Positions 48,831 to 57,428 of a DNA stretch of 64,000 bases are shown here, piece after piece. The notes beneath the pieces are model-generated. The model did no database searches, was not told where the DNA came from, and was given only the letters and a program-made list of their open reading frames with translations. Origin of the DNA: Chitinophagales bacterium (lineage in GTDB: Bacteria; Bacteroidota; Bacteroidia; Chitinophagales; UBA10324); assembly GCA_025056305.1 (NCBI GenBank), contig JANWWJ010000002.1, positions 1 through 64,000 of the forward strand. Reading direction: 5' to 3'. The translations under genes and the position numbers were made by a program. Each line of letters begins with the position of its first letter. Within the stretch, counting starts at the first letter, position 1.

Positions 48831-49490
48831 TCACGTAACAGCAGCATCGTCTGAAAAAAATGGACGAAGCAACTTGATCTCGTTCCGATATAAAATAAGT
48901 TGATTAAGGTTTTCAAATTGTTTCAAAATTCGTGAAACCACAACACGCGTAGTGCCCAGATCCGAGGCGATTTGCTGATGCGAAACCTTGACCACACTAC
49001 TTTGCGCATGACGGCTTTTGTCAATCAAGTAATTTTTTACCCGCTGATCCAGATTGCCAAAAGCAATTAGATCGATGGAATGCAACAGCTCATTGAACCT
49101 ATGTATGAAACTGTCGAAAATGTAAGAACGCCACGACGCATACTTGCAGAGCCATTCATCCAGCTTTTGGTGAGGAATGGCCAACAACTGGCCATCTTCT
49201 TCTGCAATGGCTTTTACCTCGCTTTTGCGCGAATGCATGCAACAACTGTACGCCATGCTGCAACTATCGGCTGCTGAGAGGTAATACAACAAAATCTCTT
49301 TCCCCGATTTTTCCATGCGGTAAACCTTAACTGTACCCCTCAGAATGATGGGCATGGCACGGATGTATTTGCCGTAATCGATAATTAGATCGCCTTCATG
49401 AAAGTCTTTGAACTCCCCATGCTGCAGCATCTCTTGCAACAACGGTTCTTCAAAAAGATTTTTCAGCGATGAGAGGGATGCTGACTGCAT
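48831..49490 (-). CDS. Crp/Fnr family transcriptional regulator
   Basis: A 219-residue regulator with an N-terminal cyclic-nucleotide-binding-like beta roll (about residues 20-125), a dimer helix, and a C-terminal helix-turn-helix (QIASDLGTTRVVVSRIL, about 167-183). Three cysteines (77, 83 and 84) cluster in a loop of the sensor domain where cyclic-nucleotide contacts usually lie. This argues for a thiol- or metal-based signal over cAMP, as inference. It closes the sulfur cluster, 123 bases after the DsrE gene, with its own TAnnTTTG element. Confidence 0.88.
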   Translation of the reverse strand: MQSASLSSLKNLFEEPLLQEMLQHGEFKDFHEGDLIIDYGKYIRAMPIILRGTVKVYRMEKSGKEILLYYLSAADSCSMAYSCCMHSRKSEVKAIAEEDGQLLAIPHQKLDEWLCKYASWRSYIFDSFIHRFNELLHSIDLIAFGNLDQRVKNYLIDKSRHAQSSVVKVSHQQIASDLGTTRVVVSRILKQFENLNQLILYRNEIKLLRPFFSDDAAVT

Positions 49491-49613: not shown

Positions 49614-50030
49614 TCAAAATCCTGATTTGATGTAACTCCATCCTTCGGCCTGACGGCGGGCAATGTGTAGGATCGCCGACGGTATATAATCCACTCCTTC
49701 TAATATCTGTTCTTTGCTGACTTTGCGTTCTTTCATGGAAAACTCACACGCACTGAACCGTACGCCCTTTGCAACGTACTGGCCAATGCGATCGGCCACT
49801 TGTGACCGGTCTTTTTGCACCATCTCCAAACCGGGTCCGTGGCAAATGACTTCAATCTGCAAATCGGGCTGCAGGCTGGTGATGTTTCCCAACTGCCGCA
49901 TCAGTGCCTTATGAGCTAAGGTGTCACCACTTACCATTTGAAAAACAATTCGCGGAGGGCCCGAAGCTGGTTGCGCTTGAAGCTGAAGATAAAGCAGCGG
50001 AATTAAAAGCAAAAAGAAAACCTTTTTCAT
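49614..50030 (-). CDS. Exported DsrE-family protein
   Basis: A 138-residue protein with a signal peptide (hydrophobic residues 4-18, ending LQAQ), then a DsrE/DsrF-like fold. Cys95 in GVRFSACEFSM is at the position of the conserved sulfur-carrying cysteine of the family, and Cys63 lies in VICHGPGL. Cytoplasmic DsrE/TusD proteins pass persulfide sulfur; this copy is predicted to be periplasmic. It follows the SoxB-like gene by 12 bases and is likely co-transcribed. Persulfide carriage is an inference from family and location. Confidence 0.82.
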   Translation of the reverse strand: MKKVFFLLLIPLLYLQLQAQPASGPPRIVFQMVSGDTLAHKALMRQLGNITSLQPDLQIEVICHGPGLEMVQKDRSQVADRIGQYVAKGVRFSACEFSMKERKVSKEQILEGVDYIPSAILHIARRQAEGWSYIKSGF

Positions 50031-50042
50031 TATTAATTGTTT

Positions 50043-51737
50043 TTATCTGAATTCATAAGGGACGCCAGTAACCTGGGTGAGTAAGGTAGGAGGAGCATCC
50101 AGTGCTACGGCTTGTTGTCGGGGCCGAGGACTTACTGGAACATGAAGCTTAAGGTAGTTGCGCAACGTTTCGTGTAGGGTATAAGGAAGCAACTGAGGCT
50201 CCTGTACATTGCTGATTCGACAAAGGACGTGATCGGGATCACCGTCGCGTTCACAAGCGGCAATACGATAGCGACGCTCGTCGCTTAAGGGCTCCCCCCC
50301 GACAAGAACTTCTTGAACCCTATGACCTTTGGGGCCGAAAGCAAGAAACTTTACGTGCATGCCATCAAATTTGATGAGCCACCCACCAAAACGTTCCGAT
50401 GCGTTTTTTGCAAATACGTTATTCAGTTCTTTTTCCAGCCACTCGCGCAATTGCTTGCCTGTAACAACGCCGGTTTTGATCGGACTATCTACGGGTAACA
50501 TATCGTAGAGGTATCCGTTGGTAATAGGTATGTTTCCCGTATGGTCAGGAGTCACACGCGGCGGACAAAAACGAAAGCCGTTTGACAATACAATGTCTAC
50601 GTCAGGCAGACGCCACCGCAACGCATCCAGAATCAATGTATCTATGGGATTTTCGATAACAAAGTAGCGGTATAAGGGAACAGTACTGTAACCGACTATC
50701 TGGTAAATGCGATCGCGATAAGGCGCTTCTACCTGCTCTATTAAAGAAACCATCTGGCGATCGGCAGCATGCGTGTGTGGCCCTATTTCCATCAACTGAT
50801 AATCGTCGCGTACAATTTTGCCGTCTTCGACCGTCAAGCGCAGCTCCCCGACAAAAGACCCGAATGCTCCGGGCTCTACTACTTTTGCAAACCTACATTG
50901 AATCGGCTGCCGGACACGTTCGTGCGTATCGCCGCCAAGAATGTAATCAACACCTTTACATACTTCCTGATTCGCCAGATGAATCTGTTGGGAAAGTCCC
51001 AAGTGTGCCAAAATGATGACGAAAGAGCACTGCTCCTGTTCGCGCAAAACCGAAACATAATACGGCAGGTTATCCTCGGGCTTCGTGTATACAATGCCTT
51101 TACTATAATTGGGCGACTGCCGAAGCGGTACTAAAGGATCGGTGTAGCCGAGGAATCCTATTTTGATTCCATTTATGCTCCATACATAGTAGGGAGGAAA
51201 AATCAACTCTCCTTTTTGGCCCTCTCCCAGATCATGGTACATATTGGCACAAACCTTTGGAGCCCATAGAGAGCCCAACAGCCGCTGCATGTTTTTCTTA
51301 TAATATATCACCTCCCAGTTCCCGGGCAGATAGAGGTCATAGCCAAGAGCATTGAGGATGGGTACCAAGGCTGCACCTTGGGTTTCAACACTCAGCAGGC
51401 TGCCTTGGAACATGTCTCCGGTATCTACAATGAAGGTATATGGGTTGTTTTTTCGGTATTTACGGAAGAAGGTAGCCAAGTGTGCGTAGCCGCCCGTCTT
51501 GCGAAAAACGGCACGACCATTTTCCCAGAACAATTCATCGTGAGGATGAATCTGGCAGTGCACATCAGTGGTGTGCAAGATGGAAATGGTGAAGCGCCCC
51601 TTGGTTGGTGAAGTGGGTAGAGATACCGGCGCTTCACTGGTCCATGCTCCGGCAGCTCTTCGGGAGCCCGCAAAAAGCAGGCCGGCAGCCCCAGTCAACG
51701 CAAGCGTTTTCAAAAATCCTCTCCGACTGTTGCTCAT
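50043..51737 (-). CDS. SoxB-like metallophosphatase-fold thiosulfohydrolase, Tat-exported
   Basis: A 564-residue member of the 5'-nucleotidase/SoxB superfamily. The twin-arginine signal SRRGFLK (residues 4-10) sends it folded across the inner membrane. The metal site is visible as TTDVH (Asp58, His60), DTGD (105-108), HLG (His245) and GGDTH (268-272). The 5'-nucleotidase GNH[DE] is GNWE here (139-142), the His-to-Trp change I associate with SoxB, and SNGFRF and the late FGG segment also fit SoxB better than nucleotidases. SoxB normally releases sulfate from sulfur bound to SoxYZ. No soxYZ is present. A nucleotidase remains possible. Confidence 0.78.
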   Translation of the reverse strand: MSNSRRGFLKTLALTGAAGLLFAGSRRAAGAWTSEAPVSLPTSPTKGRFTISILHTTDVHCQIHPHDELFWENGRAVFRKTGGYAHLATFFRKYRKNNPYTFIVDTGDMFQGSLLSVETQGAALVPILNALGYDLYLPGNWEVIYYKKNMQRLLGSLWAPKVCANMYHDLGEGQKGELIFPPYYVWSINGIKIGFLGYTDPLVPLRQSPNYSKGIVYTKPEDNLPYYVSVLREQEQCSFVIILAHLGLSQQIHLANQEVCKGVDYILGGDTHERVRQPIQCRFAKVVEPGAFGSFVGELRLTVEDGKIVRDDYQLMEIGPHTHAADRQMVSLIEQVEAPYRDRIYQIVGYSTVPLYRYFVIENPIDTLILDALRWRLPDVDIVLSNGFRFCPPRVTPDHTGNIPITNGYLYDMLPVDSPIKTGVVTGKQLREWLEKELNNVFAKNASERFGGWLIKFDGMHVKFLAFGPKGHRVQEVLVGGEPLSDERRYRIAACERDGDPDHVLCRISNVQEPQLLPYTLHETLRNYLKLHVPVSPRPRQQAVALDAPPTLLTQVTGVPYEFR

Positions 51738-52857: not shown

Positions 52858-53271
52858 TCAATGCGGTAAATGGTCCTTGATGAGGCCGTAAGCAAGCGTG
52901 CCCAATAGAGCAAAGACAAATACAATCAGGAAAGAATAATACCCATATCCAATATTTACCACAATGGGACCGGGACATGCACCACTTAATGCCCACCCCA
53001 AGCCAAATAACGATCCCCCAATCAAATAGCGGTAAAAAGACCTCTCTTTAGGGTAAAAAACGATGGGATTGCCTCGGTAATCGCGAAGCTGCAACCGCTT
53101 GATCAAGTAAACACCCAATACGCCCAGTGTGACAGCTGTACCTATAATGCCATACATGTGAAATGAATGAAAGCGAAACATTTCTTGAATGCGATACCAC
53201 GACATAGCTTCCGACTTGACCATGACTATACCGAACATTATGCCCAACAATAAAAATGGTAGATTCTTCAT
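52858..53271 (-). CDS. YeeE/YedE family transporter, second half (DUF6691-like)
   Basis: A 137-residue membrane protein with four helices and the cysteine motif LSGACPGPIVVNIGYG near residue 95. YeeE/YedE proteins import thiosulfate or related sulfur compounds through cysteine-lined sites. This half-size protein pairs with the 183-residue gene just upstream, together making one full-length transporter equivalent. An AAAGGATC stretch before the ATG at 53271 supports that start. Confidence 0.86.
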   Translation of the reverse strand: MKNLPFLLLGIMFGIVMVKSEAMSWYRIQEMFRFHSFHMYGIIGTAVTLGVLGVYLIKRLQLRDYRGNPIVFYPKERSFYRYLIGGSLFGLGWALSGACPGPIVVNIGYGYYSFLIVFVFALLGTLAYGLIKDHLPH

Positions 53272-53287
53272 AGACGATCCTTTTTTT

Positions 53288-53839
53288 TTAATGGAAAATC
53301 CAACCAAAGAACACATGCGTCATCAGCAGCCCCCCTAGGAAAAAGCCTATGACGGCCAGCAAAGATGGCCATTGCAGATTAGACAAGCCACTGATGGCAT
53401 GGCCCGAGGTGCAGCCGCCGGCGTAGCGCGCACCAAAACCTATGAGGAAGCCTCCCAGAGCTAACCACCAAAAGGTGCCTGAGGTTACAGCCTGCCAACC
53501 AAACAACTCAGCAGGTTGCAAAGCTGTGGGAGCGGAAAATCCATATCGGCGCAAGGTTTCAAGCGTCGCTTCAGAGAGTTCGACGTGCTGAGCAGGGAAC
53601 AGTTGGGCCGCAAAAAAGCCACCCAAAAGAGCCCCCAACATGAACATCAAATTCCAGCTTTGGCTGCGCCAATCAAAATCAAAAAATTTTACATGTCTGC
53701 CTGCTCCAGCTATGGCGCAAATTGTACGCAAGTTGCTGGAAAAACCAAACGTTCGGCCTAAGTACAACAATGCCAACATGATGGCAGCTATGGCAGCGCC
53801 ACTGAGCCACCACGGCCATGGTTCATAAAGCCATTTCAT
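53288..53839 (-). CDS. YeeE/YedE family transporter, first half
   Basis: A 183-residue membrane protein with about five helices and the motif AGGCTSGHAISG near residue 145, the signature cysteine of this sulfur-transporter family. It is followed after 16 bases by its smaller partner. Split YeeE/YedE pairs occur in many Bacteroidota and Proteobacteria. Thiosulfate uptake is the likely role, given the neighbouring sulfur genes. Confidence 0.87.
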   Translation of the reverse strand: MKWLYEPWPWWLSGAAIAAIMLALLYLGRTFGFSSNLRTICAIAGAGRHVKFFDFDWRSQSWNLMFMLGALLGGFFAAQLFPAQHVELSEATLETLRRYGFSAPTALQPAELFGWQAVTSGTFWWLALGGFLIGFGARYAGGCTSGHAISGLSNLQWPSLLAVIGFFLGGLLMTHVFFGWIFH

Positions 53840-53851
53840 GGGATAATGGGT

Positions 53852-54700
53852 TTAGGATTCGTTTAATTGAAATGAAACGATGGGTTTGTACAGGTGATTT
53901 ATCAACCGCTCGGTCACACTGTGATGCAGCAGCCCTCCCTTTCCGTGAGTTCCGATAAAGATCAAATCCATGTTGTGCATTTGGTTGAAATGCACAATAC
54001 CCTCCTCAACGGTTCGGTCGTGAATCAGGTGAGCTGTAAAAGGAGGCAATCCGTTCAGGTTGGCGAAATGCTGCACATTCTGTTCAAAAGCGGGTCTTTC
54101 GCGCTCTACATCTCCAGTGGTGATTTGCAACAAATGCAGGTTGGCTGAAAAAGCCTTAACCATCTTTTGCAAGAGCTTTAAGTTCAGTTGCTCGCATTTG
54201 CTGAAATCGTGGATAAGCAAAATGTTGCGGATGAGCAAAGCCGAACGGTCACACCTCAACGACAATACCGGTACCCGACTTCGCCGCGCTACAATTTGCG
54301 TTTCAGAGCCGGAAAGTTTTTCGCGAACACCCCAGGAACCTTTTGTTCCCATGACAATAAGATCCATACCCTCAGCCTCGGCAAAGGCAACGATTTCGTC
54401 CGTCAACTTGCCTGCCTTTAGGTGCGTTTGGATGTCCTGGCCGTAGCGTTGCTGCAAGTCGCTCAGTTTGGCCAAAGCAAGATCACGTTGCTGAGAAACA
54501 AATTCAGCATCAATTTCCCCACAGGTTTCGATACTGCCATCTGCATTAAGGGTGACCGTGTCGGGCACATGAAGCACATGTAGAAAATGTATGCGCAGAG
54601 GTAAACGTTCGCCCAATTTACGTGTCATTAAATAGGCATATTCCGCCTGAACCGTAAAATCGGTGGGAATGAGCACTTGCAATTCACCAGCAGCCGTCAT
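53852..54700 (-). CDS. Universal stress protein with two Usp domains
   Basis: A 282-residue cytoplasmic protein with tandem Usp domains (about residues 4-145 and 153-278). The first ends with the ATP-loop-like GTKGSWGVREKLSGS and the second with GTHGKGGLLHHSVTE, so both may bind ATP. I chose the ATG at 54700, because the upstream extension to 54865 overlaps the rhodanese gene. It sits within the sulfur cluster, 12 bases after the transporter gene's start side. Its role there is unclear. Confidence 0.87.
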   Translation of the reverse strand: MTAAGELQVLIPTDFTVQAEYAYLMTRKLGERLPLRIHFLHVLHVPDTVTLNADGSIETCGEIDAEFVSQQRDLALAKLSDLQQRYGQDIQTHLKAGKLTDEIVAFAEAEGMDLIVMGTKGSWGVREKLSGSETQIVARRSRVPVLSLRCDRSALLIRNILLIHDFSKCEQLNLKLLQKMVKAFSANLHLLQITTGDVERERPAFEQNVQHFANLNGLPPFTAHLIHDRTVEEGIVHFNQMHNMDLIFIGTHGKGGLLHHSVTERLINHLYKPIVSFQLNES

Positions 54701-54773
54701 AACTCCGTTTTTTCCTCTGCTTGCTTCCAGAAACATGAACGTGAGTTTTGCGTGGCCAAGTGGCTTTATGGGG

Positions 54774-55091
54774 TTACTGAAGTAAGGCCATGACATCTTC
54801 CCAAGCGCCGCCGTTGTGGACGTTTTGGATGCCGTTCTGTTCGAGGATTGCCTTCGCCTGACCACTGCGATTACCGCTGCGACAAAACACTACAATGGGA
54901 CCCTTATTTTGAAACTCACTGATGCGGGCCGGCACCGTGTCTAACGGAATGTTGACCGCACCCGGCACACTGCCTGCAGCAAATTCCTCAGGGGAACGCA
55001 CATCTACCAAAAAAGCACCGTCGCGCACAATCTGCCTCAGTTGGTCGGTACCTACAGAACTACCGCCAAACAAACTTTGGAAAAAGTTCAT
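54774..55091 (-). CDS. Single-domain rhodanese
   Basis: A 105-residue rhodanese with the active-site loop CRSGNRS (Cys near residue 70) and the CH1-like DVRSPEEF motif. No signal peptide is visible, so it probably transfers sulfane sulfur in the cytoplasm. Single-domain rhodaneses of this type feed persulfide to partners. It lies between the TauE/SafE exporter and the Usp gene. Confidence 0.92.
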   Translation of the reverse strand: MNFFQSLFGGSSVGTDQLRQIVRDGAFLVDVRSPEEFAAGSVPGAVNIPLDTVPARISEFQNKGPIVVFCRSGNRSGQAKAILEQNGIQNVHNGGAWEDVMALLQ

Positions 55092-55184: not shown

Positions 55185-55985
55185 TTAGTCCCACCACAAT
55201 TCCTTCACTATGATGTAAACGCCGATGATCAACACAAACCAACCAAATGCCGGCTTGAGCTTTTCACCAGAGATGTGCCGAGATAATGCTGCACCTATGA
55301 AGGTACCCGCTATGGCGAAGGCCGACACTTGCAACAAGAACAGCCAGTCGATCTCCTGATGACCGATTTCACCGATAAAGCCCAACAACGACTTGGCGGC
55401 TATGATCACCAACGATGTCCCCACGGCTTCTTTCATAGGCAACTTACCCAGCACCACTAATGCCGGTATGATCAAAAATCCTCCTCCAGCACCAACCATG
55501 CCCGTCAATACGCCCACGACCGTTCCTTCCAGCACCACCAGTCCGTAACGAAACGACTTGGGGTCTGCCGACTGTTTTGCGGTATCTGCGGTTCCTTTGC
55601 GAATCATACTGACCGAAGCCGCAATCATCAACACCGCAAACAACACCATGAGCAGAATGCGTTTGGTAAGTGCAAATGCACCAACCGTCAGCACCACGTC
55701 AGGAATGGCGGGAACAATCCAGGCCCGAGCAGCAAAGACGGCGATGATGCTGGGTATCCCAAAAACAATAGCCGTACGTACATTGACCAGATGTTTGAAG
55801 AAATAGGTCCCCGAACCAATCGCACTGGTTAAGCCCACTATGAATAAAGAATAGCCGGTGGCTGGTACAGCTTCGATCCCAAACAAGTACACCAACACCG
55901 GAACTGTGAGAATGCTGCCCCCCCCACCGATGAGGCCTAACGATACCCCAATGAGCACCGATGCTAAATAACCCATCAGCTCCAT
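55185..55985 (-). CDS. TauE/SafE (TSUP) family anion exporter
   Basis: A 266-residue integral membrane protein with about eight helices and the twin glycine-rich repeats GVSLGLIGGGGSILTVP and GMVGAGGGFLIIPALV, diagnostic of TSUP permeases. Members export sulfite or sulfoacetate, or import related anions. Sulfite export fits the persulfide dioxygenase-like gene just upstream (36 bases), but the direction cannot be read from sequence. Confidence 0.9.
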   Translation of the reverse strand: MELMGYLASVLIGVSLGLIGGGGSILTVPVLVYLFGIEAVPATGYSLFIVGLTSAIGSGTYFFKHLVNVRTAIVFGIPSIIAVFAARAWIVPAIPDVVLTVGAFALTKRILLMVLFAVLMIAASVSMIRKGTADTAKQSADPKSFRYGLVVLEGTVVGVLTGMVGAGGGFLIIPALVVLGKLPMKEAVGTSLVIIAAKSLLGFIGEIGHQEIDWLFLLQVSAFAIAGTFIGAALSRHISGEKLKPAFGWFVLIIGVYIIVKELWWD

Positions 55986-56021: not shown

Positions 56022-57428
56022 CTACGATGCTGACGAGACTAACGGCAAACCTTTCGTCGTCCATTCTTGAATGCCGCCGGAAAAGTTGCGCACATTGGTA
56101 AATCCGTGTGCGGCCAACAACGAATAGCCGATGGTAGCCCGGTCACCTGCCTGACAATGTATGATCACCGGTCGGTTGCGACTTACCTGATTGAACCGCA
56201 AGGGCAGATCCCCTACAAAAAGATGCTCGGCTCCTGCTATGTGCCCTGACTTGTATTCTACCGCACTGCGCAAGTCAATGATCTGGATATGGTTGGCTTG
56301 CTGCAGGTGATGTAGCTCTTCGGCAGTAATGAGTGAAACCTGCTGCAGCTTACCTCCTGCCTGAGTGTATGGGTGTGTGGAGGGCACGTACCCCAATACA
56401 TTATCCAGACCGATGCGCATCAGCTTGCGCACTAAATCATCGTGCCGGTCTTCGGGGGCCAACAGGATGAAGGGCTTGTCATAGCTCAAAAACCATCCTG
56501 CCCAGGTATTGAATGAGTTGTTTCCCTGGATGTTAATACTTCCCGGAATAAATCCTTTGGCAAATTCGGTCTTATCGCGCGTATCTACCAGGGTTATGCC
56601 CTGGCGCAGCAGATCCATGAGCTGATCGCTTACGTCTTTAAGTTTGGGCACTTCAGTCAATAAAGGTCTGTTGATCTTATTAAGCTTTTTCATCATAGCA
56701 AAATACCGGGGAGGCTCAGGCTGATCTGCCAGCAAAAAGTTTATAAAACCTTCTTTATCATGGGCAAAGCGAAAAGCCCAGTTGGTGATTTTTTCATAGC
56801 CCACGGTGGAGCTGGGTACCGCTCCTAAGGCTTTCCCGCAGGCGGAACCGGCTCCATGCCCCGGCCATACTTGTATGTAATCGGGCAATGCCGCAAATTT
56901 TTTCAACGACTCAAACATTTGTTCTGCGCCTTTGCGCTGCGTGCCTTGATAGCCAGCAGCCTTTTCCAACAAATCGGGACGGCCAATGTCTCCGACAAAG
57001 ACAAAGTCGCCCGTAAAGAGCATCACCGGCTTGTCGCTGGCTGGTGTGTCGGTAAGTAAGAAACTAATGCTTTCGGGCGTATGTCCCGGCGTGTGCATCA
57101 CCTGTATTTTGAGATTTCCCACCAGCACCACATCTCCATCACGCAAGGGGTGATGCGGAAACTCGTACGACCACTCGGGGCCTCCCTCGGCCGATAAATA
57201 CAATTCTGCTCCCGTCAGAGCCGCCAGCTCACGAGAGCCGGTCAAAAAGTCGGCATGAATATGCGTTTCAAATATATGGGTGATCCTTAATTTATTGGCC
57301 TTGGCGATCTCTAAATACGTGTCCACATCTCGCTTCGGATCAATGACCGCAGCGACGCCGGCTTTCTGACATCCGATGACGTAGCTGGCCTGAGCGAGTG
57401 ACTTGTCGTAAACGTGCTGGAAAAACAT
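56022..57428 (-). CDS. MBL-fold hydrolase/rhodanese fusion (persulfide dioxygenase-like)
   Basis: A 468-residue cytoplasmic protein. The N-terminal metallo-beta-lactamase domain (about 1-250) has THIHADF (His56, His58, Asp60), HTPGHT and FTGDFVFVGDIGR, the ETHE1/persulfide dioxygenase pattern. Two rhodanese domains follow. The first (about 270-355) has LLAPEDR where the catalytic cysteine loop should be, so it is inactive. The second (about 375-465) has HCQAGDR with the cysteine. Such enzymes oxidise glutathione or protein persulfide to sulfite. It is the first gene of the sulfur cluster, with a near-consensus promoter element 37 bases upstream. Confidence 0.9.
   Translation of the reverse strand: MFFQHVYDKSLAQASYVIGCQKAGVAAVIDPKRDVDTYLEIAKANKLRITHIFETHIHADFLTGSRELAALTGAELYLSAEGGPEWSYEFPHHPLRDGDVVLVGNLKIQVMHTPGHTPESISFLLTDTPASDKPVMLFTGDFVFVGDIGRPDLLEKAAGYQGTQRKGAEQMFESLKKFAALPDYIQVWPGHGAGSACGKALGAVPSSTVGYEKITNWAFRFAHDKEGFINFLLADQPEPPRYFAMMKKLNKINRPLLTEVPKLKDVSDQLMDLLRQGITLVDTRDKTEFAKGFIPGSINIQGNNSFNTWAGWFLSYDKPFILLAPEDRHDDLVRKLMRIGLDNVLGYVPSTHPYTQAGGKLQQVSLITAEELHHLQQANHIQIIDLRSAVEYKSGHIAGAEHLFVGDLPLRFNQVSRNRPVIIHCQAGDRATIGYSLLAAHGFTNVRNFSGGIQEWTTKGLPLVSSAS

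Follow-up and report, generated by a model that had tools for sequence, protein, structure and literature searches.

SoxB serves as a marker gene for thiosulfate oxidation. How SoxB-type enzymes work in genomes without SoxYZ is a question raised directly by a 64,000-nucleotide stretch of a Chitinophagales genome (the window), in which a SoxB-like gene (50043-51737) is separated by 12 bases from a gene for a secreted DsrE-family protein (49614-50030). The initial annotation suggested from this pair that the exported DsrE substitutes for the SoxYZ sulfur carrier. The pair is real, with both ORFs on the minus strand; however, the annotation overlooked an adjacent gene for a TsdA-type cytochrome, nine bases upstream of the SoxB-like gene, which changes the reading of the locus.

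A nine-gene cluster with a TsdA-type cytochrome

The SoxB-like and DsrE genes belong to a minus-strand cluster of nine genes in the order persulfide dioxygenase-rhodanese, TauE, rhodanese, Usp, two YeeE halves, TsdA-type cytochrome, SoxB-like and DsrE. All the genes upstream of the cytochrome, from the two YeeE-type membrane proteins back to the metallo-beta-lactamase (MBL)-rhodanese dioxygenase, run in the same direction. The features, with an adjoining regulator, are as follows:

48831..49490, minus strand: Crp/Fnr-family regulator, adjoining the cluster (PF00027, PF13545)
49614..50030, minus strand: secreted DsrE-family protein, 138 aa, with a Sec-type leader and an invariant Cys95 (PF02635, 34.8 bits; MTH1491/ST0148 homologue; predicted fold)
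50043..51737, minus strand: SoxB-like protein of the thiosulfohydrolase/5'-nucleotidase superfamily, 564 aa, with a Tat-type N-terminus and PGNWEV and LSNGFRFC motifs (TIGR04486, 234 bits, cut-off 550; SoxB fold match)
51747..~52841, minus strand: TsdA-type dihaem cytochrome c (thiosulfate dehydrogenase homologue) with an N-terminal anchor and the Cys-ligand motif RVNDCLQRS (SoxA-TsdA domain; A. vinosum TsdA match)
52858..53316, minus strand: YeeE/YedE-like membrane protein, DUF6691 half (PF04143, PF20398)
53288..53839, minus strand: YeeE/YedE-like membrane protein, other half (PF04143, 61.9 bits; weak TsuA match)
53852..54865, minus strand: universal stress protein with two Usp domains (PF00582)
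54774..55091, minus strand: single-domain rhodanese (PF00581)
55185..55985, minus strand: TauE/SafE exporter (PF01925, 144.5 bits)
56022..57428, minus strand: metallo-beta-lactamase and rhodanese protein of the persulfide/sulfur dioxygenase type (PF00753 and PF00581)

Judged from its sequence, the whole cluster, end to end, looks like one for thiosulfate and persulfide chemistry. A Crp-family gene near the cluster recurs among relatives.

The dihaem cytochrome was matched by the A. vinosum TsdA chains at E values of 2e-40 to 3e-41, and the cysteine haem ligand was aligned between the two (RVNDCLQRS in the window, RIGDCFERS in A. vinosum TsdA). Besides this ligand, the protein has the two CXXCH haem sites of TsdA. 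Both sites were found in 47 of 47 relatives, all of which also kept the cysteine of the ligand motif (RITDCIQRS in one of them, pattern matches in the other 46).

The SoxB-like and DsrE proteins in a genome without SoxYZ

The SoxB-like protein combines a Metallophos (calcineurin-type phosphoesterase) domain with a C-terminal 5_nucleotid_C domain and begins with a Tat-like N-terminus (SRRGFLK). Its best sequence matches are SoxB, and its structure model (mean pLDDT 89) was most similar to SoxB 2wdc (Z 40.4, rmsd 2.2 over 482 residues), followed by 5'-nucleotidases (Z 37.9). The name SoxB-like in the initial annotation was thus borne out by fold and domains, but the protein is not a bona fide SoxB: it scored 234.1 bits against the curated cut-off of 550 of the SoxB equivalog model TIGR04486, and it carries PGNWEV where most true SoxB proteins have GHWE. 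All 80 named relatives share PGNWEV and LSNGFRFC. We regard the family as a sister family of SoxB, and "SoxB-like" is the right name for it. Orthologues were found in 19 of the 395 surveyed genomes of the phylum (its own included), the others at 44-68% identity.

The motif of 5'-nucleotidases is GNHE. Because the Metallophos and 5_nucleotid_C architecture is common to both groups, the score lies below the SoxB equivalog cut-off, the metal-binding Asn of GNHE is retained and nucleotidases come close behind SoxB in fold rank, the protein might be taken for an ordinary periplasmic 5'-nucleotidase lying beside DsrE incidentally. We consider this very improbable, since the catalytic His is replaced by Trp in all 80 relatives, as in SoxB, and SoxB is the best match by both sequence and fold. 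Moreover, TsdA is present at 33 of the 49 loci, among the 80 named relatives, that have 5 kb of flank on both sides.

The DsrE-family protein passed the profile PF02635 (34.8 bits, cut-off 22.7) and starts with a Sec-type leader that can be read directly from the sequence, MKKVFFLLLIPLLYLQLQAQ. Its structure model (mean pLDDT 95) matched MTH1491 (Z 20.5), ST0148, YchN, TusBCD and DsrEFH (Z 13-15), with a clear drop in score to the following entries, and places Cys95 at the end of the strand 91-95, directly before a helix. In an alignment of 40 relatives (25-72% identity), Cys95 was the sole invariant column; Cys63 is frequent yet replaceable. The signal peptide and the cysteine at the sulfur-binding position, both pointed out at the outset, were thereby confirmed. 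The protein did not match the SoxY domain PF13501 and lacks the C-terminal GGCGG swinging arm, ending instead in SYIKSGF.

That no SoxYZ was visible in the window holds for the whole genome (2.41 Mb, 99.5% complete), in which neither the SoxY nor the SoxZ model found a match. Both models matched six of six control genomes from a sister group with bona fide SoxB, which makes the absence meaningful. SoxYZ hidden elsewhere in the genome is thus ruled out, and the SoxB-like protein lacks the usual SoxYZ partner. SoxY and SoxZ were likewise absent from all 18 other surveyed genomes of the phylum with a SoxB-like orthologue, and SoxY, searched alone, was not found in 18 named SoxB-like genomes, a few of which may be the same species. 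TusA was ruled out as the carrier as well, with no match in the genome, while the control gave matches in 11 genomes.

Linkage of DsrE, TsdA and SoxB-like genes across genomes

The survey of 395 genomes yielded 30 DsrE loci in 28 genomes. The steadiest neighbour of DsrE was TsdA, which often abutted it: 19 of the 30 loci had TsdA within 2 kb, and the seven with a SoxB-like gene within 2 kb were all among those 19, leaving 12 TsdA-proximal loci without SoxB-like alongside. TsdA was absent nearby at the remaining 11, one of which (G068) lies in a partly masked region. Additionally, DsrE and TsdA co-occurred in 22 genomes (3.1 expected), DsrE and SoxB-like in 11 (1.35 expected) and TsdA and SoxB-like in 14 (2.1 expected); these hypergeometric values are descriptive, as the relatedness of species was not removed. 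With co-occurrence and adjacency so far above expectation, the pairing of the exported DsrE with these genes is not due to chance.

The named relatives gave a similar picture, with DsrE at 26 of the 49 well-flanked loci, every one of them also with TsdA. DsrE was not present within the 5 kb flanks at seven of the 33 loci with TsdA and SoxB-like. Of seven such genomes checked (L129, L153, L157, L162, L165, L167 and L188), four had no DsrE match at all, two had weak distant matches only, and L188 had a strong copy elsewhere in the genome. No SoxY was found in the seven genomes, several of which are metagenome bins of unseen completeness, and across nine SoxB-like loci without DsrE its place was not taken with any consistency by another small secreted protein with a Cys. 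A complementary distribution, with SoxYZ where SoxB-like genomes lack DsrE, was thus ruled out. Most of the other well-flanked loci come from Algoriphagus and its kin, where the SoxB-like neighbourhood is a different one with no TsdA, DsrE or YeeE nearby (L113, L117, L124, L127, L131 and others). At L032-L034, in three genomes, the gene ahead of SoxB-like encodes another kind of dihaem cytochrome, and TsdA is located elsewhere. Four SoxB-like genomes without the first DsrE carry a divergent secreted DsrE (type 2) directly before SoxB-like; there, DoxX precedes DsrE and no TsdA match was found in the genome.

Genes for YeeE, TlpA and rhodanese recur around DsrE, and at L088 DsrE stands with TsdA and YeeE while SoxB-like is elsewhere. 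The neighbours are mostly sulfur genes, and ones unrelated to sulfur were seen at L086, L091, L092, L103 and on an Azospirillum plasmid. A cultured example is Runella slithyformis DSM 19594, whose plasmid pRUNSL04 carries TauE, two MBL proteins and tsdA-dsrE-soxB-like-oprD-yeeE, with a 4-base overlap of tsdA and dsrE (RUNSL_RS28940, TsdA; RS28935, DsrE; RS28930, SoxB-like). In Indioceanicola profundi, two secreted DsrEs were found beside SoxAX, SoxY (ending in GGCGG), SoxZ, SoxB and SoxCD-like genes, assigned by sequence reading. The dsrE genes of this plasmid Sox cluster (L194, two secreted DsrE ORFs; L201:9721-13818) are in tandem, with genes for a CcdA/DsbD-type protein and thioredoxin-like proteins nearby.

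Several further genes were observed in these neighbourhoods. At L101:5452-6138, L093:4551-5249 and L094:5719-6426, the Sec-exported DsrE and TsdA are adjoined by a further DsrE-like protein, which is Tat-exported, 228-235 aa long and marked by an FCVC motif; it matched the DsrE alignment in a profile comparison (Prob 94, E 1.8e-7), although the one copy scanned had no Pfam match. Annotations as "transcriptional initiation protein Tat" occur near SoxB-like on Bradyrhizobium and Bosea plasmids (L193:9887-10681, L198:8348-9139 and the end of L199). The two Bradyrhizobium proteins resemble the Tat-exported DsrE-like proteins, and these names are probably wrong; both Bradyrhizobium plasmids have TsdA-type cytochromes alongside their SoxB-like genes. 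A solute-binding protein adjoins TsdA, DsrE or SoxB-like genes at L102 and L193 (SBP_bac_11 when scanned) and at L049 and L100 (by similar sequence); its ligand could be tetrathionate, molybdate or another oxyanion. In many relatives, though not in the window, SoxB-like is followed by an OprD-type outer-membrane porin (L036:10743-12173, L190:14666-16066), perhaps an entry route for thiosulfate or tetrathionate.

Possible roles of the exported DsrE and comparison with known systems

SoxB acting without SoxYZ had already been published. In the TsdA-SoxB pathway of Erythrobacter flavus 21-3, SoxB is proposed to act on TsdA-made tetrathionate without SoxYZ (Zhang et al. 2020; PMC7608252). That order is supported by tsdA and soxB mutants, with no Sox complex and with the involvement of an MBL-rhodanese dioxygenase (Sdo), and the authors give Bacteroidetes among the organisms with tsdA and soxB homologues (PMC7608252). 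DsrE is unmentioned in that paper and in its 2022 follow-up (PMC9426585), and no paper linking an exported DsrE with TsdA or SoxB was found in the open-access literature. Relative to this literature, what is new here is the exported DsrE in the operon.

In the best-supported account, DsrE would follow TsdA directly and serve as a periplasmic thiol accepting thiosulfonate or sulfane sulfur. We give about an even chance to the fuller reading, which places the pair in an exported module for thiosulfate oxidation, a version of the TsdA-SoxB pathway in which a secreted DsrE replaces or supplements free tetrathionate. Beside the observed gene content, homologies, invariant cysteine, export signals, linkage and absence of SoxYZ, every chemical step of this scheme is one that we infer. 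The persulfide dioxygenase-rhodanese and TauE would deliver thiosulfate or sulfite outside the cytoplasm, or thiosulfate would arrive from the environment, to be oxidised by TsdA at its Cys-ligated haem. Cys95 of DsrE may then take up the thiosulfonate, from a TsdA intermediate or from tetrathionate, giving Cys95-S-S-SO3-. The di-metal SoxB-like enzyme would remove sulfate, with either this conjugate or tetrathionate as its substrate. For the sulfane sulfur left on Cys95, the recipients would be the YeeE-type pair or thiol reductants. Thermus SoxB, according to the literature, binds the SoxY-thiosulfonate conjugate with its metals; together with the thiosulfonate of DsrE3A from M. cuprina, this makes such DsrE/SoxB-like chemistry compatible. 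The aligned Cys ligand of TsdA, the invariant Cys95, the DsrE-TsdA linkage, the co-occurrence of the three genes, the type 2 DsrE directly before SoxB-like in four genomes, the lack of SoxYZ and TusA, and the precedents from M. cuprina, E. flavus and SoxT1 count for the DsrE-equipped pathway. The DsrE loci without TsdA nearby, the TsdA and SoxB-like loci without DsrE, the Algoriphagus-type loci with neither TsdA nor DsrE, the Indioceanicola DsrEs beside SoxYZ and the lack of TusA, the partner of M. cuprina DsrE3A, count against it.

A stricter form of the idea makes DsrE a true functional replacement of SoxYZ, as initially put forward; here TsdA would load Cys95 with thiosulfonate and the GNWE-type SoxB-like enzyme would hydrolyse sulfate from Cys95-S-S-SO3-. 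If true, a carrier-bound pathway for thiosulfate would have evolved independently a second time. The absence of SoxYZ from this genome and from the SoxB-like genomes tested agrees with it, as does the recurrence of a secreted invariant-Cys DsrE, type 2 included, beside SoxB-like. We nevertheless regard it as unlikely: DsrE pairs mainly with TsdA, often with no adjacent SoxB-like, it has no GGCGG arm, and two secreted DsrEs reside in a canonical Sox cluster that contains SoxYZ. In addition, some genomes with TsdA and SoxB-like have neither DsrE nor SoxY, so that both carriers are apparently dispensable for SoxB-like. This last observation also favours a carrier-free pathway, in which SoxB-like would hydrolyse free TsdA-made tetrathionate and the part of DsrE would be limited to gathering the sulfane sulfur set free, for YeeE import or reduction; DsrE would then be no substitute for SoxYZ. 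The E. flavus mutants, obtained with the same parts as in the window (PMC7608252), and the company of DsrE with TsdA and YeeE at L088 fit that course of events. It is still rather doubtful, because the support from E. flavus comes from genetics rather than enzymology, and because type 2 DsrE directly adjoins SoxB-like in four genomes without TsdA. DsrE might, alternatively, be an accessory of TsdA with no carrier role (a chaperone, a thiosulfate/tetrathionate sensor or a repair factor for the TsdA thiol), as its most constant neighbour is TsdA even at the 12 loci without adjacent SoxB-like. We hold this to be improbable, given that invariance is confined to the Cys in the sulfur-binding position of the DsrE fold and that sulfur genes (YeeE, TlpA and rhodanese) recur around it. 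Taken together, a periplasmic sulfur carrier in the pathway is a plausible role for DsrE, which probably carries sulfur outside the cell membrane.

If it does, DsrE would offer a testable answer to the SoxYZ question for a wide group of Bacteroidota and a second way of binding sulfur intermediates outside the cytoplasm; Runella slithyformis, as a cultured strain with tsdA-dsrE-soxB-like, makes the carrier idea testable. Even if DsrE is no carrier, its gene and that of TsdA form a strongly conserved pair, which we did not find in the open-access literature searched.

Among known systems, the E. flavus pathway is matched at the level of genes, since the window encodes a SoxB-type protein along with TsdA and an MBL-rhodanese dioxygenase but no SoxYZ; the window operon differs in adding a secreted DsrE and a YeeE pair and in its SoxB-type family, GNWE. 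A truncated Sox system (SoxAX, SoxYZ and SoxB) likewise sets a SoxB-fold hydrolase next to a periplasmic Cys protein and a Cys-ligated cytochrome, whereas the window has a TsdA-type cytochrome for SoxAX, a DsrE fold without the GGCGG arm for SoxY, no SoxZ and a SoxB-like protein below the family cut-off. The nearest solved structures to DsrE, MTH1491 and ST0148 (PDB 1l1s and 2pd2), have a Cys at the same position but, unlike the window protein, show no leader peptide in the chains that were solved. The authors of the SoxT1 work consider it conceivable that sulfur on the Cys of SoxY passes through this YeeE-like protein (PMC11582611), and transfer from DsrE to YeeE would parallel that idea. In Metallosphaera cuprina, DsrE3A forms a Cys-S-thiosulfonate from tetrathionate, so that a DsrE-fold Cys is able to hold this group (PMC4175335); DsrE3A has a Cys-X7-Cys arrangement, belongs to an hdr cluster and donates to TusA, whereas the DsrE of the window is exported and is encoded in a TsdA/SoxB-like cluster of a TusA-less genome.
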